The position numbers and the translations under genes were made by a program. From Chloroflexota bacterium (GTDB taxonomy: Bacteria; Chloroflexota; Anaerolineae; UBA1429): 64,000 nt of DNA. The stretch lies in assembly GCA_012719135.1 (NCBI GenBank), contig JAAYAW010000077.1, positions 1 through 64,000 of the forward strand, given 5' to 3'. Below, one piece after another: positions 24,981-31,249 of this stretch (the stretch's first letter is position 1; each line of letters begins with the position of its first letter). The notes under the pieces are model-generated. The model ran no database searches, was not told the origin of the DNA, and worked only from the letters and a program-made list of their open reading frames with translations.

Positions 24981-25070
24981 GCGATCTTGGCCGGATAGCC
25001 ATTGAGATCACGCACCCGGCGGTACCGGTGCCGCCGGGTGCACCGTGTCAACGAGGAGGTTCTGTCGCAG

Positions 25071-25925
25071 ATGGTCAACCGCGACGATACGGGCTGGATC
25101 ACCGACCTGGTGGTGGGGCTCTCGCAGAGTCCTGAGAATGCCATGCATGGCCCCTTTGATGAGCCAGCCTGGGGCACTCCTCTGGTGGGCATCGCCAGAG
25201 GGGACGACGCCCTCTTTGCAGCGTACAAGGAGCATGTCGGGCCAGAGCACTGGACTCCGGCCGAGGCGATGGCCCTGGCCTATCCACACGATCCGCCCGC
25301 TGCGGAGGAGATCGCGGTCATCTCGTGGATACTCCCGCAGACGGCGAGAACGAGGCAAGATAACCGTGCAGAGCGCGTCTATCCCGCCGAAAGATGGGCA
25401 CGCTCTCGCATGTTCGGCGAGGCCTTCAACAGCCTGCTCAAGCAGCGCGCGGTCCAGGCCCTGCGGGAAGCGGGATACGACGCCATGTCGCCCACGCTGT
25501 GGCCCGGTTTCGGCATGGTGGATTCAGCCCGTTGTGTCTTCGCTTCGCCATGGTCGGAGCGCCACATCGCGCATGCCTGTGGGTTGGGCACCTTTGGCCT
25601 CTGCGACGGCCTGATCACGCCGGCTGGTAAGGCGGTGCGTCTCGGTTCAGTGCTCGCGCGCTTGCCTGTGCCGCCGGCCGAGCGTCCCTATGCCGATCAT
25701 CACGCCTACTGTCTGCACTATGCGCTGGGCCATTGCGGAAGCTGCATCCAGCGTTGCCCGGTCGGCGCCATCAGTCCGGCCGGCCATGACAAGCGCCTGT
25801 GCCGTGCCCATCTGGATGCCACGCGCCCCATCGTTCTCGAACGCTACGGGTTCCAGGGCTATGCCTGCGGCCTATGCCAGACCGGCACTCCCTGCGAAGC
25901 GGGCATTCCGGAGGCTCTGCGCTAG
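25071..25925 (+). CDS. QueG-like cobalamin/4Fe-4S reductase family protein
   Basis: The protein has 284 residues from ATG 25071 (GAGGAGG at 25053-25059). The region ERHIAHACGLGTFGLCDGLI corresponds to the conserved substrate/cofactor segment of epoxyqueuosine reductase and reductive-dehalogenase relatives. Cys222-x2-Cys225-x3-Cys229-Pro is one ferredoxin-type cluster motif, and a second cysteine set (CGLCQTGTPCE) lies near the C-terminus. It is shorter than QueG and has no HEAT repeats, so I do not call it queuosine synthesis. The stop overlaps the convergent hydrolase stop at 25922-25925. Confidence 0.7.
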   Translation: MVNRDDTGWITDLVVGLSQSPENAMHGPFDEPAWGTPLVGIARGDDALFAAYKEHVGPEHWTPAEAMALAYPHDPPAAEEIAVISWILPQTARTRQDNRAERVYPAERWARSRMFGEAFNSLLKQRAVQALREAGYDAMSPTLWPGFGMVDSARCVFASPWSERHIAHACGLGTFGLCDGLITPAGKAVRLGSVLARLPVPPAERPYADHHAYCLHYALGHCGSCIQRCPVGAISPAGHDKRLCRAHLDATRPIVLERYGFQGYACGLCQTGTPCEAGIPEALR

Positions 25926-26749
25926 AGCGTATGCAGAAAGCCGAGGACGGCGGCCCTGTAGGCGTCAAAAGCCTCGCGGCGGATGTTATGCCCCGCTCCG
26001 GCAACCTGCACCACCTGGATATGCGAGGAGAGTTGGCAGGCCAGTTCGGCAACCGCCGGCGTGACAATCGCACCCAGGCCGGCCATAGCCTGCACGTTGG
26101 GATCGCCAGTGAGCAGCAACGTCGGGCACTCGATGCCCGCGGCCACGGCCCGCCAGTCCGGCCCGCCCGGCACCATATTCTCCAGCGCCTCTGCGCTGCA
26201 GCGGTGCTTGGCCTGGGCCCAGGGACAAAGTTCCTCTTCCGCCCAGCCTGTTCGATGCGCCCGCCCGTAGGCCACCAGCGCCTCCACGGTGAGCGCCCGG
26301 TACTCCCGGAGCCTCCGGCGATACTCGCCGGGGCCCCCGCCTGGCGCGGCAGGGACGTCTCTCCAGGGTGGATCCTCCAGCACCGCACCCGCCAGCAGCC
26401 CCGTGTGGCGAGCCGCCACCAGCGAGACCGTCTGCGCCCCCATGGAATGCCCGATGGCCACCGGCCGGCGGAGCCCAAGCTCCTCGACGAGAGCGAACAG
26501 GTCCTCAGCCTGATCCAGGCTGGTGTAGGGCCCCGGTGGCGTCTCGGAGTGGCCATGGCCCCGTGCGTCGTAGGCGACGAGGTCATAGGCCGGCGCCAGT
26601 GCGGACGCGAGACGCGGCCAACACTGGCCCGAATCCGTGATCCCATGAGCGAGCACTACCGGTCGACCGTTCCCGCCCGACCGGTAGTAGTGCAGCCTGA
26701 GTCCGTTAGCGAGCACGTCGCCACTGGCCCACCCGTCGATGAAGTTCAT
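25922..26749 (-). CDS. alpha/beta hydrolase
   Basis: The protein has 275 residues; the start ATG 26749 is preceded by GGAGGGGAG. LAHGITDSG is the oxyanion loop, IGHSMGAQT contains the nucleophile Ser, LLLTGDPN carries the acid, and GAGHNIR the catalytic His. It is the last gene of a four-gene minus-strand operon, 67 bases after the ThDP enzyme. It may cleave an ester, a lactone or a C-C bond of a pathway intermediate. The exact substrate is not inferable from sequence alone. Confidence 0.82.
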   Translation of the reverse strand: MNFIDGWASGDVLANGLRLHYYRSGGNGRPVVLAHGITDSGQCWPRLASALAPAYDLVAYDARGHGHSETPPGPYTSLDQAEDLFALVEELGLRRPVAIGHSMGAQTVSLVAARHTGLLAGAVLEDPPWRDVPAAPGGGPGEYRRRLREYRALTVEALVAYGRAHRTGWAEEELCPWAQAKHRCSAEALENMVPGGPDWRAVAAGIECPTLLLTGDPNVQAMAGLGAIVTPAVAELACQLSSHIQVVQVAGAGHNIRREAFDAYRAAVLGFLHTL

Positions 26750-26816: not shown

Positions 26817-28466
26817 TCAGCTCGTGACCCATGCTCCAAATACAGGGTACTGGCTGCAGGCGATCTCCAGATACGCAGGCCGGCCCTCTTCATTCTGGGC
26901 CAGGGCACGCTTCAGCGCAGGAACGATCATGGCCGGATCGGTCACGTCCTCGGCATAGTACCCCAATGCCTCTACAGCCCGCGAAACATCGGCCGTCTCG
27001 TGGTCGCATACATCGCAGGTGTAGGGATCGTGGCCAGGCCCCCAGAAACCAGGCCCGTAGCCGGCAAAGCCGCCGTTGTTGATGTGTACGGTTGTCACGC
27101 CGATGCCGTTTCGGACGAGGGCCTCCATGTTCCCGAGCATATAGCCAACGCCGGCATCACCCGTCACATTCATCACCTGGCGTTCCGGGAAAGCCAGCTT
27201 GGCGGCCATGGCTGCCGCCAGGCCAAAGCCCAGTGTCGAAACGTTGCCCCATCCCAGGAATCCTCGGGGTATCTGCGGCTCTATGATGGTGCTTAGCTGA
27301 TCGCGAGTGGTGCCGGAATCGTGCGTGACAAAGCTGTTGGCCGGATCAAGAACGCTGAGCATATCGGCATACACGCGATAGGGGTTGATAGGGATCTCGC
27401 CGGATGCCATGGCCGGCCGGTACTTGGCGAGCATGGCTTCCTTCTGCGCCCGAATGGCCTGCAACAAGCCAGGCCGCTCGCATTTACCCGCCTGCCAATT
27501 GGCCAGCTCAACATCCAGTGCCTGCAGGGTGAGCTGAGCGTCGCCCAGCACCGCATAGTCGGTCGGGTACACTCGGTTGACGTCCTCCGCATCGGCCGTG
27601 CAGTGGATGATGATCTTGTGCGCAGCGTCGGGAATGGCCTGGCGAAAGTGGCCAGCCGCAAGGCTCGTGCCCACCGCGAGAACCAGATCGCAGCTGCGCA
27701 GGAACGAGGCAGCCAACTCGCCCCGCACGCCTACCGAGAGGGGATGGTTTCCCGGAAAGGCGCTCTGAGCCTTTAGCGTAGTCATTACAGGCAACTGGGC
27801 CCTCTCAGCGAACGCGACGAGCGCGTCCGTCGCCTCGGCATACAGCACGCCCTCACCCGCGAGAAGCAAGGGATGTTGCGCGTTGAGCAGCGCGCCGATC
27901 GCCAGACTTACGTCAGCCGGGTCAGGCGCCGCCCGCCATCCCTTTACCGGCTGATAGGGGTACTGCTCGGGATCATAGGCACCCAACGCTCTCGGCATCG
28001 TCACCAGCACCGGGCCCCGCCTCCCCGTGCGCAGAAGCGTGAATGCACGCCGCAGGATCTCGGGCACTCGCTCCGGCCGATCGATCTCGCCAACGTACTT
28101 GCAGACGGAACGCATCCCCGCGATCATATCATAGTGGGCGCGTCCGCCTGATCCCACCGGAATCCCGTCCGATATGCACAACAGAGGCGACGAGTCCTCA
28201 TACGCCTGTGCCAGGGCTCCGTAAGCCATCTGCAAGCCAGCCGGGTTCAGCCCACCCATCACCGTGCACACGCCGATCTTTTTTCCCTCAGTCACGCGGG
28301 AGTACGCATCCGCGACGGCCACCGCGTACCGCTCGTCCCGCATCATGACCATCGGCACACCTTCCTCGCCAAGCGCGTTGTTCACGCAGCAGACCGGGAA
28401 GGTGCTTACCCACTCGACGCCTTCCTGCTTCAGTATCCTGGCCAGCCCATTTGCCGCTTCAATCAT
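26817..28466 (-). CDS. thiamine diphosphate-dependent enzyme, acetolactate synthase/decarboxylase superfamily
   Basis: The protein has 549 residues and three domains: PYR (about 1-165, with the cofactor-activating Glu in MMRDERYAVAVADAY), a central Rossmann domain (about 190-330), and PP (about 370-545) with the ThDP-Mg motif GDAGVGYMLG followed by NN. The family performs decarboxylation or carboligation of 2-keto acids. The adjacent glycerate kinase and enolase-like genes would fit a glyoxylate-carboligase-like role (glyoxylate to tartronate semialdehyde). However, no tartronate semialdehyde reductase is nearby and other ThDP activities remain possible. Confidence 0.82.
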   Translation of the reverse strand: MIEAANGLARILKQEGVEWVSTFPVCCVNNALGEEGVPMVMMRDERYAVAVADAYSRVTEGKKIGVCTVMGGLNPAGLQMAYGALAQAYEDSSPLLCISDGIPVGSGGRAHYDMIAGMRSVCKYVGEIDRPERVPEILRRAFTLLRTGRRGPVLVTMPRALGAYDPEQYPYQPVKGWRAAPDPADVSLAIGALLNAQHPLLLAGEGVLYAEATDALVAFAERAQLPVMTTLKAQSAFPGNHPLSVGVRGELAASFLRSCDLVLAVGTSLAAGHFRQAIPDAAHKIIIHCTADAEDVNRVYPTDYAVLGDAQLTLQALDVELANWQAGKCERPGLLQAIRAQKEAMLAKYRPAMASGEIPINPYRVYADMLSVLDPANSFVTHDSGTTRDQLSTIIEPQIPRGFLGWGNVSTLGFGLAAAMAAKLAFPERQVMNVTGDAGVGYMLGNMEALVRNGIGVTTVHINNGGFAGYGPGFWGPGHDPYTCDVCDHETADVSRAVEALGYYAEDVTDPAMIVPALKRALAQNEEGRPAYLEIACSQYPVFGAWVTS

Positions 28467-28502: not shown

Positions 28503-29768
28503 TCATCGGTTGCGCCAGCCGGTGTAGGCCTCTTTCCCCAACCAGATGGCCGTAGAGCCCAGTTCCTCCTCAATCGCCACCAATCGGTTTCGATTGCCGC
28601 CTCGCACCTGGCCCGCGTTCAGTCCTACAGCAAAGTCGCCTATCGTTGCGTTGTCTCCGCGACTGCCGCAGGGATGGATATTATACCCGTTTAGGCGCGC
28701 CAAGCTGCACGCCTCCAGTGCCTCCGTCACTGTGCCGATCTGAGTGATCTTTAGGACCATGGAACTCGCCGCCCCGGCCTCGATAGCTCTCTGCAGCCGC
28801 TCGGGGTTCGTCGTGAAAAAGTCGTCGCCGACCACTTCGACGCCCAGTTCCTTCACGGCAAGCGCGTGCCCTTCTATGTCCAGTTCGTGAAGCGGATCCT
28901 CGAGAGAGACAATCGGATACTGCTCCACCCACTCTTTGAGGAGAGAGAGGACATCATCGCGGGTCTTTTCCCCTGCCGAAAAGTACCCAACGTAACGATC
29001 GATATCGCGCTCATAATAGCAGTCCGCGGCGCAGTCGAAATAGATCCCGACCTCGCCTTCATGCCCCGCCCGTACGATCGCCTCAGTCATCGCTTCCAGC
29101 AACTCGCGGTCATGGTCGATCACTCCCGCAAGTGAGAGGCTGTGGTACGCCGGTTGGAACCGCCCAGGATACCGCTGCCTCAGCAGTCCGACCGTCTCGC
29201 GAGTGCATTGCCAGCTCCAGTACAACGCCTCGGCATAGCTCCCCGCGCCGAAAGCGGCGAACTCGTAACTGGGCTTGAACCAGCGAGACTCACCGGGATC
29301 GCGATATCGCCCACCTGTGCCGATGCCGACGATGGGGATGGGCACTGTGCGCGCGGCAGGCCCTCCGATATACCGGTACAATGGGAGCTTGCAGCTCTTA
29401 GCCGCGGCGATGATGACGGCAAGCGATACGCCTACAATCGCGTTTGCACCCAGGCGCGACTTGTTGGGTGTGCCATCCATGCTGATCATGGCCATATCGA
29501 TGCCGGCCTGATCGGTGACGTCCATGCCCACCAGTGCGGGCCCGATCTCTTCGTTCGTCTTCTTGGCCGCGTTCCGCACGCCAAGTCCATTGTACCGGTC
29601 GCCGCCGTCCAACAGAAACGCTGCCTCGTAGGTCCCTGTGGAAACCCCCGATTCGGGCGTCGCGATGCCGACCGCCCCACTCTCGGTCTCCACTTTGACC
29701 TGCAACGACACCGTTCCCCGGGCTGCATAGATCTCACGTGCCTGGATGCTGGTTATGCGGTCAGACAT
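28503..29768 (-). CDS. divergent enolase-superfamily protein (enolase paralogue)
   Basis: The protein has 421 residues, enolase length. The N-terminal capping domain is clearly enolase-like (DGTPNKSRLGANAIVGVSLA, GVSTGTYEAA). In the barrel the metal ligands appear conserved (YFDCAAD, VSLEDPL, VVGDDFF), as does the general base Lys340 in LKITQIGT. The region with the general acid Glu and the Gly-Gly-x-His-Ala loop is replaced, SHRSGET becomes CGSRGDN, and the phosphate-binding Lys near GQxKTG is Arg. It may still bind a 2-phosphoglycerate-like compound but probably does not run the normal reaction. It sits between a glycerate kinase and a ThDP enzyme. Confidence 0.8.
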   Translation of the reverse strand: MSDRITSIQAREIYAARGTVSLQVKVETESGAVGIATPESGVSTGTYEAAFLLDGGDRYNGLGVRNAAKKTNEEIGPALVGMDVTDQAGIDMAMISMDGTPNKSRLGANAIVGVSLAVIIAAAKSCKLPLYRYIGGPAARTVPIPIVGIGTGGRYRDPGESRWFKPSYEFAAFGAGSYAEALYWSWQCTRETVGLLRQRYPGRFQPAYHSLSLAGVIDHDRELLEAMTEAIVRAGHEGEVGIYFDCAADCYYERDIDRYVGYFSAGEKTRDDVLSLLKEWVEQYPIVSLEDPLHELDIEGHALAVKELGVEVVGDDFFTTNPERLQRAIEAGAASSMVLKITQIGTVTEALEACSLARLNGYNIHPCGSRGDNATIGDFAVGLNAGQVRGGNRNRLVAIEEELGSTAIWLGKEAYTGWRNR

Positions 29769-29803
29769 GGTGCACTCTCCTTATCGCAAAGATGGGCAGA
29801 AAG

Positions 29804-31249
29804 CTAAATCACCACAGCAACGCGAAGGTCTCCCAGGCAGGTGCCGGTATTCCCGGTGTAGATCGCGTTCTTTAGCCTCATCAGTGGAACCGTCGCGTTG
29901 TGGTTAGCCAGCTCTGCAGCAAGATCGATGCCGGCCGCGTCGGCCTCCTCTCCGAGGTAACCGTCCGTCACGCCGCCCGCCATGCAGATCGGCTCACCAC
30001 CAGAGAGCTGGGTGCCGGGGCCGTCGGTCCCATCCGAATCGACCGCCGCGACGACCACGCGACGGCTCGCCAGGCGCCCGCTGCTTAGCAGGCATCCCCA
30101 GGAGAGGGCGAACTCCTGGTTCCGCCCACCCACTCCCGTGGCATCGCCCACCGGCACATCCAGGTGCCCTCCAGTGATGAGGGCCACGGGCGGCTCAAAG
30201 GGCCTCCCGTACGCCTCGCACTCGTGGGCGATCTGGGCAAGCACGTTCGCCGCCTCGCCAGAGAGGGCCGTCAGGTGGGATGAGAGAACCACCCCTTTCA
30301 GCCCGAGCGCCTCGGCCCGCTGCCGAGCCCCCTCCACCATCTGGTAGAGATCGATCGGCTGCCAGAACGACATCTGCATGCTGGAGAACGCCTCCAGACC
30401 CGGCACGTCATACTCGGGATCGGCGCCATCCAATACCTTCTGCATCAGAGGCGGCAACTCGCCAAACCAGGGCTGCGCCATGAACCAGGCTCGATCCTGC
30501 GCCAGGCGCTGCCTGCCGGACGGCCACGTGGGCACAAAGGAGCTGCTGTTCGGGATTCTGCCGCCCCAGCGCTCAAACAGGCCAACCTGCATGATCAAGT
30601 TGATGCTGCGTGCTGGCTGCAAGATTTGCATGAGCCGGCCCCGGCTGAGCTGCGAAAAGTAACCCATTGAGCGAATGATGACCTGCTGGCTGCCATACTT
30701 GATCGCCAGCCGGTACAAAGCGTGCAGGTCGTCCAGCGTGATCCCGGAGGCCGGCAAAGGAGAGAGCGACGAGGCCCCATCGGAGAACACAGTGATGACC
30801 AGATCCCGCGCGGTGGCGCGCCGAGCGAGCTCGGCGATCCGTTCAGCGCCCCGGACACTGCCCTCGTCGGGCACGGGGTGTGCCCCCTCGGTCACCGTGA
30901 TCCGGTCCAACAGGTGCGGCTCGCCATGCTTGATCGTGATTGCGCCCGCGGTGAGACGATCTCCCAACAGATCCTCCAGCGCCTTGGCCTGGCACTGGAC
31001 CGCCTTACCGGCGCCGATCACATAAATGTGCTCTACTGTCTCGAGGTCGATGGCTTCGTCTCCGAATCCGGACACGTCCATGTCCGACTGCCCACCCACC
31101 AGCAGACGGTTACCCTCGATGCGAAGCAACTTCTGTGTGTTGGCGTACGGATCAGAGGCTTGCAGCCCGCCCTCCAAGACGCTCAGGGCCAGCTCCCTGC
31201 CCTTGCGATCGCCATGTGAAACGAGCTCATCCAGGTTCTTGATGATCAT
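29804..31249 (-). CDS. glycerate 2-kinase, MOFRL/DUF4147 type
   Basis: The protein has 480 residues from ATG 31249, with GGAGG eight bases upstream. The N-terminal DUF4147 domain has VIGAGKA and KHGEPH; the C-terminal MOFRL domain has GGRNQEFAL and AVDSDGTDGP. The family phosphorylates D-glycerate at C2 with ATP, producing 2-phosphoglycerate. It is the first gene of the operon with an enolase-like protein 35 bases downstream, so its product would be the natural substrate of an enolase. A long leader with palindromes precedes it. Confidence 0.85.
   Translation of the reverse strand: MIIKNLDELVSHGDRKGRELALSVLEGGLQASDPYANTQKLLRIEGNRLLVGGQSDMDVSGFGDEAIDLETVEHIYVIGAGKAVQCQAKALEDLLGDRLTAGAITIKHGEPHLLDRITVTEGAHPVPDEGSVRGAERIAELARRATARDLVITVFSDGASSLSPLPASGITLDDLHALYRLAIKYGSQQVIIRSMGYFSQLSRGRLMQILQPARSINLIMQVGLFERWGGRIPNSSSFVPTWPSGRQRLAQDRAWFMAQPWFGELPPLMQKVLDGADPEYDVPGLEAFSSMQMSFWQPIDLYQMVEGARQRAEALGLKGVVLSSHLTALSGEAANVLAQIAHECEAYGRPFEPPVALITGGHLDVPVGDATGVGGRNQEFALSWGCLLSSGRLASRRVVVAAVDSDGTDGPGTQLSGGEPICMAGGVTDGYLGEEADAAGIDLAAELANHNATVPLMRLKNAIYTGNTGTCLGDLRVAVVI

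Follow-up and report, generated by a model that had tools for sequence, protein, structure and literature searches.

A divergent glycerate-kinase homologue and an enolase-like protein with a rebuilt active site form a co-inherited gene pair in Chloroflexota

Which step is catalyzed by an enolase-fold protein that has lost the catalytic acids of enolase and is encoded next to a glycerate-kinase homologue? This question is raised by a locus of a Chloroflexota bacterium of the class Anaerolineae (assembly GCA_012719135.1, contig JAAYAW010000077.1), of which positions 1 to 64,000 of the forward strand, hereafter the window, were analyzed. On the minus strand, the gene of a divergent class II (DUF4147/MOFRL) glycerate-kinase homologue of 481 amino acids (KIN, 29804..31249) is followed after 35 bp by that of an enolase-fold protein of 421 amino acids with a rebuilt active site (ENL, 28503..29768). 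The sequence AAGGAGAG is found shortly 5' of the ENL start codon ATG. Both open reading frames and their Pfam domains, DUF4147 (1e-32) and MOFRL (4.9e-16) in KIN, Enolase_N and Enolase_C in ENL, agree with a preliminary description of this DNA, which had seen a kinase beside an enolase-fold gene. We find that KIN and ENL belong together as a dedicated pair, inherited jointly and with the active site rebuilt; they probably make up a two-step route for an acid of the three-carbon type.

A canonical eno, to be expected elsewhere in the genome if ENL serves another purpose, was found. The genome of the window (2.64 Mb, 99% complete) encodes four enolase-domain proteins, one canonical and three divergent. 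The canonical gene (contig C16, 36240-37502) carries every catalytic motif, namely NGGAHA, FQEF, GDEGGF, SHRSG, and GQIK, and its product shares 41% identity with the window ENL, which is thus ruled out as the only enolase of this genome. The divergent genes, located on C65 (the window) and at 26.8k and 45.4k of C20, each directly adjoin a divergent MOFRL kinase.

ENL proteins are monophyletic on a long stem (support 1.0) and split into two subclades, the window type and the L006 type. In a phylum-wide scan, the ENL profile assigned at least 513 bits to ENL and at most 362 bits to ordinary enolases. The distribution of the family is patchy: it occurs in 12 of 298 Anaerolineae genomes and in only two among the further Chloroflexota genomes sampled, and genomes with ENL often hold several copies. 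On one contig, two convergent ENL genes of different subclades are found (L056, 3-3184). Compared with their nearest relatives, ENL and KIN reveal 0.17-0.19 nonsynonymous (dN) and 1.5-1.9 synonymous (dS) substitutions per site (dN/dS of approximately 0.1). Due to this purifying selection the two genes are not decaying copies, and a pseudogene reading is ruled out.

The active site was compared in a residue table of 30 ENL loci from 14 Chloroflexota genomes and 19 canonical Anaerolineae enolases, with counts given over readable rows. Yeast numbering is used for S39, H159, Q167, E168, E211, D246, E295, D320, K345, H373-S375, and K396, and the numbering of the window protein for the invariants of ENL's own; Lys340 of the window protein is yeast K345. 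The roles of the yeast residues are established, and E168/E211 together with H159 belong to the site around C3. Loop-1 Ser39, D246, E295, and D320 are retained in 30 of 30 ENL sequences each, and K345 in all 28 readable ones, such that the metal ligands and Lys340, described beforehand as kept in the window protein, are invariant across the family. The acid pair E168/E211 is present in all 19 canonical enolases, whereas in ENL E168 is replaced by S or T (29/29) and the E211 loop is deleted or replaced (30/30), differing among subclades. H159 is exchanged for R or Y and Q167 for P (30/30 each). The SHRS motif has become x-S-R (27/27), with H373 lost and the order of Arg374 and Ser375 inverted, so that the equivalent loop reads C-x-S-R-G-(D/E); K396 is replaced by R (27/27). 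The changes that the preliminary description had listed for the window protein, in the acid Glu region, the Gly-Gly-x-His-Ala loop, SHRSGET, and the phosphate-binding Lys, hence extend to the whole family. K165, P166, C367, S369, R370, and R389 are invariant and private to ENL. A structure model (AlphaFold2) has the enolase fold (pTM 0.81), with the Chloroflexus enolase 4z17 as its best match (TM-score 0.87). As judged from the alignment, the altered part of the ENL site is the region around C3, with the two-metal carboxylate site and the base Lys340 intact.

The partner kinase shows a similar pattern. Among the seven MOFRL kinases of the window genome, KIN is 33% identical to the canonical-type one. 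It retains the motifs GAGK, with the catalytic Lys, and GGRNQE, with its Arg, while the substrate-side motifs SGGGSAL, SGPTxPD, and GGETTV are rewritten. The partner kinases of other ENL proteins likewise retain GAGK and GGRNQE, and in most of them the SGGGSAL, SGPT, and GGETTV segments are rewritten. With 78.5 bits, KIN falls far short of the glycerate 2-kinase equivalog cut-off of 550 bits, and the earlier assumption that it makes 2-phosphoglycerate has become doubtful. KIN and ENL, as far as their motifs tell, both appear changed on the substrate side. Divergent MOFRL kinases without an enolase-like neighbor also occur in G000, two in tandem on contig C60 (L022, 6951-10041) and a single one on C57 (L021, 8602-10077); the latter type recurs in L094 and L096 with the same neighbors.

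Are the two genes partners or chance neighbors? In six of the 30 ENL loci, the contig stops on the side that would be informative, which leaves 24 loci assessable for kinase adjacency. A MOFRL kinase lies within 350 bp of ENL at 19 of these, and in L067 it is located 4.5 kb away in the same gene run. Close relatives of the window KIN were identified in 11 of the 298 Anaerolineae genomes, and all 11 belong to the 12 genomes with ENL (Fisher 3.5e-19; the genomes are related, so that this p-value is optimistic, but five families are spanned). A mirror-tree comparison of the 19 kinase-ENL pairs gave r=0.61, the best of 5000 shuffles reaching 0.44. Adjacency, co-occurrence, and co-variation thus rule out a chance pairing, and relatives of ENL are not scattered without the kinase, the outcome that would have spoken against a shared role. 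Where ENL lacks a neighboring kinase, it adjoins a gene of a URO-D-family protein in two cases (L072, 9133-11595; L073, 2760-6024), the second of which also contains a DeoC-type aldolase.

For the function of the pair, the lower branch of the non-phosphorylative Entner-Doudoroff pathway offers a template. There, an aldehyde dehydrogenase or a ferredoxin oxidoreductase yields glycerate, a class II kinase converts it to 2-phosphoglycerate, and enolase forms phosphoenolpyruvate (PEP); all class II kinases characterized by then form the 2-phosphate (PMC2063504). In two species, a gene for an aldehyde:ferredoxin oxidoreductase (AFOR) is located directly upstream of KIN (L067, 13527-17033; L091, 8307-11774); both AFOR-KIN pairs are preceded by genes of a small protein of 84-93 amino acids and of a relative of LacI-type regulators. 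The gene run of L067 also includes ENL, aldolases of HpcH type and RraA-like type, a D-2-hydroxyacid dehydrogenase, and an ATP-binding cassette (ABC) importer for sugars. In L060, with a window-type ENL, and in L064, from the other subclade, an isomerase, a PfkB kinase, and a class II aldolase are encoded directly upstream of KIN and ENL; in L064 this set is preceded by an ABC sugar importer. Because ENL operons repeat the order AFOR, kinase, enolase with altered enzymes, we infer a similar route, and we favor, with some confidence, the reading that KIN and ENL act one after the other in a catabolic module of their own, a remodeled version of this lower branch. Substrate, order of reactions, and elimination chemistry would be as follows. 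An aldehyde would be oxidized to a 2-hydroxy acid by AFOR or a dehydrogenase, and KIN would phosphorylate the 2-hydroxyl of a glycerate-like acid other than D-glycerate. ENL would then hold the 2-phospho acid via two Mg2+ ions and the carboxylate, Lys340 would abstract the alpha-proton, and loss of a beta-substituent from the aci-carboxylate would leave PEP or an analogue of it. A dehydratase-like (eliminase) step of this kind, as already suggested in the preliminary description, is a reasonable inference from the retained and lost residues. The loss of the acid pair and H159, together with the invariance of K165 and R370, suggests a beta-substituent different from that of enolase, probably either a leaving group which needs no protonation (an anion, e.g., sulfite) or a group served by a new acid. 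Paralogous KIN-ENL pairs in one genome might act on different acids.

Several observations weigh against this reading. Four of the 24 assessable loci (L066, L071, L072, and L073) have readable flanks, and no kinase was found nearby. With 306.7 bits, ENL marginally passes the NCBIfam eno equivalog model (TIGR01060, cut-off 300). Confidence of the structure model is low in the catalytic loops (pLDDT below 50 at 48-56 and 153-163), such that the new residues cannot be placed. Sequence by itself does not fix the substrate of KIN or ENL. Finally, the neighboring genes vary among the subclades, which makes more than one substrate or source likely: other ENL loci contain sugar-acid dehydratases (MR_MLE), DHDPS and DeoC aldolases, transketolase halves, sulfatases, a PdxA homologue, and URO-D-like proteins.

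Among the alternatives, the one that survives best keeps water as the leaving group. Here, the pair would phosphorylate and dehydrate other analogues of glycerate, L-glycerate or 2-phospho-aldonates that are branched or have four or more carbons, with K165 or C367 as the new acid. The MR_MLE dehydratases, the DHDPS, HpcH, RraA, and DeoC aldolases, and the PdxA homologue among the neighbors fit this scheme, as do the several paralogous pairs per genome, and variation of the E211 loop among subclades is what one would expect if the beta-substituents differ. However, D-isomer-type 2-hydroxyacid dehydrogenases beside ENL speak against L-glycerate, and none of the linked genes encodes an enzyme acting on a longer analogue of PEP. 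We regard such a dehydration as a realistic, if rather unlikely, alternative.

The most specific version of the favored module is a desulfonation. In this case, KIN would convert (S)-sulfolactate to 2-phospho-3-sulfolactate, and ENL would eliminate sulfite to form PEP. The two would thereby complete the breakdown of sulfoquinovose, with the isomerase-PfkB-aldolase set delivering sulfolactaldehyde upstream of KIN and ENL. The isomerase type (at least 58% identity) occurs in 10 of the 12 genomes with ENL and in 5 of the 286 others (Fisher 1.5e-13). Its sole substantial NCBIfam match, obtained for four proteins over nearly their full length, is sulfoquinovose isomerase (138-148 bits; 144-148 for the proteins of L060 and L064), a model against which fucose-isomerase-type proteins of the same genome score only about 100 bits. 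A PDB sequence search with the isomerase returned no match. For all three PfkB kinases tested, the best solved relative is the sulfofructose kinase YihV of E. coli (117-123 bits), the next one scoring 90-101 bits (22 to 29 lower). The aldolase beside the isomerase belongs to PF01116, the class II family of SqiA, and hybrid clusters of the sulfo-Embden-Meyerhof-Parnas pathway in which SqvD and SqiA (PF01116) replace YihS and YihT are known (PMC9594981). An acid of D configuration would be in keeping with the D-type 2-hydroxyacid dehydrogenases that adjoin ENL in L055 and L067, and the loss of both acidic residues together with the gain of an invariant Lys and Arg fits an anionic beta-group that needs no general acid.

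Yet the isomerase remains far below the curated SftI/SqvD cut-off (138-148 versus 700 bits), while another Anaerolineae protein reaches 293 bits. The sulfonate-binding Arg of YihV aligns with Phe in L064. PF00171, the family of sulfolactaldehyde dehydrogenase, has only one weak match in G000, although AFOR could replace this enzyme. Furthermore, the window locus lacks the isomerase-PfkB-aldolase cassette, and a single substrate does not readily account for the several paralogues per genome. In the reviews searched, phosphorylation followed by an enolase-type elimination was not found as desulfonation chemistry. We name (S)-sulfolactate only tentatively as the likeliest single substrate; the route as a whole is unlikely, and we are more hesitant still about the reading in which KIN serves as sulfolactate 2-kinase and ENL as phosphosulfolactate sulfite-lyase, releasing sulfite and PEP in anaerobic Chloroflexota. 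Tandem-duplicated genes of sulfoquinovose-isomerase-like proteins and PfkB kinases flank a class II aldolase in three regions: L076 (11867-15195), L005 (256-2662, contig C20 of G000), and L087 (7125-12948). The set of L087 adjoins a LacI regulator, and that of G000 shares its contig with an ENL-kinase pair, at a distance of several kb.

ENL might instead act as an epimerase or isomerase at the alpha-carbon of a 2-phospho acid, with Lys340 and Lys165 on opposite faces, an arrangement known from the MLE subgroup of the enolase superfamily. The invariant K165 is located two residues before the position of E168, where strand alternation would point it into the barrel, and no known acid for an elimination remains in ENL. 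An epimerase would by itself not explain the pairing with a 2-kinase, and K165 is among the residues that the model does not place, so that we consider this reading improbable.

That the pair merely consists of a normal isozyme of 2-phosphoglycerate enolase and a normal glycerate 2-kinase is highly improbable. ENL does pass the eno model, and eno-kinase pairs exist on plasmids elsewhere; but a canonical eno is present, the acid pair and H159/H373 are lost throughout the family, and the plasmid enolases are themselves altered. The latter represent a second altered type near a DUF4147 kinase, found in Haladaptatus (L089, 5992-8654), Salmonella serovar India (L090, 5995-10163), and Paraburkholderia caribensis (L098, 8998-11728). 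Here, H159 is replaced by Leu and H373 by Glu, loop 1 reads GRS[RT], and E168, E211, Arg374/Ser375, and K396 are kept. Enolase and kinase are adjacent in Haladaptatus and Paraburkholderia and separated by one major facilitator superfamily gene in Salmonella, whose plasmid gene run also holds a D-Ala-D-Ala ligase-like gene and pyk; no DNA close to this eno-kinase segment was found in E. coli genomes. In Paraburkholderia, genes of a flavin-dependent (FAD) oxidoreductase, RidA, and a hydroxypyruvate-reductase-type protein are located nearby. Taken together with ENL, the plasmid cases suggest at least two origins for the combination of a kinase with a modified enolase.

In the window, two more genes continue the minus-strand order. 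A thiamine diphosphate (ThDP)-dependent enzyme of the acetolactate synthase/2-hydroxyacyl-CoA lyase superfamily (26817..28466, 549 amino acids, Pfam TPP_enzyme N/M/C) starts 36 bp behind ENL, followed by an alpha/beta-fold hydrolase of lactonase/esterase-like type (25922..26749, likely start ATG 26749, Abhydrolase_1 4.6e-26), which scores far below the cut-off of PcaD-like models. The best NCBIfam match of the ThDP enzyme is PRK06154 (446 bits, below its cut-off of 607), and its nearest PDB entry is 2-hydroxyacyl-CoA lyase/oxalyl-CoA decarboxylase (162 bits). The ThDP enzyme adjoins ENL only in the closest subclade of the window (the window, L053, L054, and L055), and the hydrolase only in the window, L053, and L054. 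Thus, of the dedicated four-gene route proposed initially, the co-inherited KIN-ENL pair stands, while the four genes are not a general unit. An origin from glyoxylate, also proposed at first, finds no specific support because the ThDP enzyme misses both glyoxylate carboligase (Gcl) models (206 and 168 bits versus cut-offs of 791 and 711), an identity we reject. A route of all four genes with the ThDP enzyme as carboligase, to which its position immediately downstream at four loci would point, is scarcely credible, given these scores and its absence from most ENL loci. A 307-amino-acid protein, whose C-terminus weakly resembles 4Fe-4S double-cluster or QueG-like proteins, is encoded at 25002-25925; together with xylose-isomerase-like and carboxylesterase genes it is kept in the sister genome (L053).

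ENL is a real, coherent enolase subfamily with its own kinase, undescribed in the literature we searched: where enolase-like proteins were looked up together with glycerate kinase, with sulfolactate, or with phosphosulfolactate, no description of the KIN-ENL module was found. Few known enzymes are as conserved as enolase, which is usually annotated by homology alone. Since ENL passes the eno model though the catalytic acids are missing, automatic annotation would misname it as eno. A coherent enolase family that has a new active site and co-varies with a partner kinase is a pointer to a step of acid degradation not yet described, and it lends itself to testing how this fold comes to catalyze another reaction. 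Were the acid sulfolactate, a new way of breaking C-S bonds would be added.

Compared with enolase (EC 4.2.1.11; TIGR01060), ENL is alike in its two-domain fold, its length, D246/E295/D320, Ser39, and Lys345. It differs in E168, E211, H159, Q167, H373, the inverted Arg374-Ser375, K396R, and the new K165 and C367, and forms a monophyletic side branch. Carboxyphosphonoenolpyruvate synthase of bialaphos biosynthesis is another enolase homologue with a different reaction, which belongs to an antibiotic pathway. The proposed desulfonation would chemically be the reverse of phosphosulfolactate synthase ComA, for which a chemistry like that of enolase, with carboxylate and Mg, has been proposed on a substrate of this type; the likeness is relevant only if the sulfolactate reading is right. 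With the class II (MOFRL) glycerate 2-kinase of Thermoproteus tenax and PDB 2b8n, KIN shares the DUF4147 and MOFRL domains, GAGK, and GGRNQE, but it differs by its rewritten substrate-side motifs and scores far below equivalog cut-offs. With the lower non-phosphorylative Entner-Doudoroff branch, the module has in common the order of aldehyde oxidoreductase, MOFRL kinase, and enolase fold, including the AFOR-KIN gene pairs; here, however, kinase and enolase are diverged paralogues beside a normal enolase.

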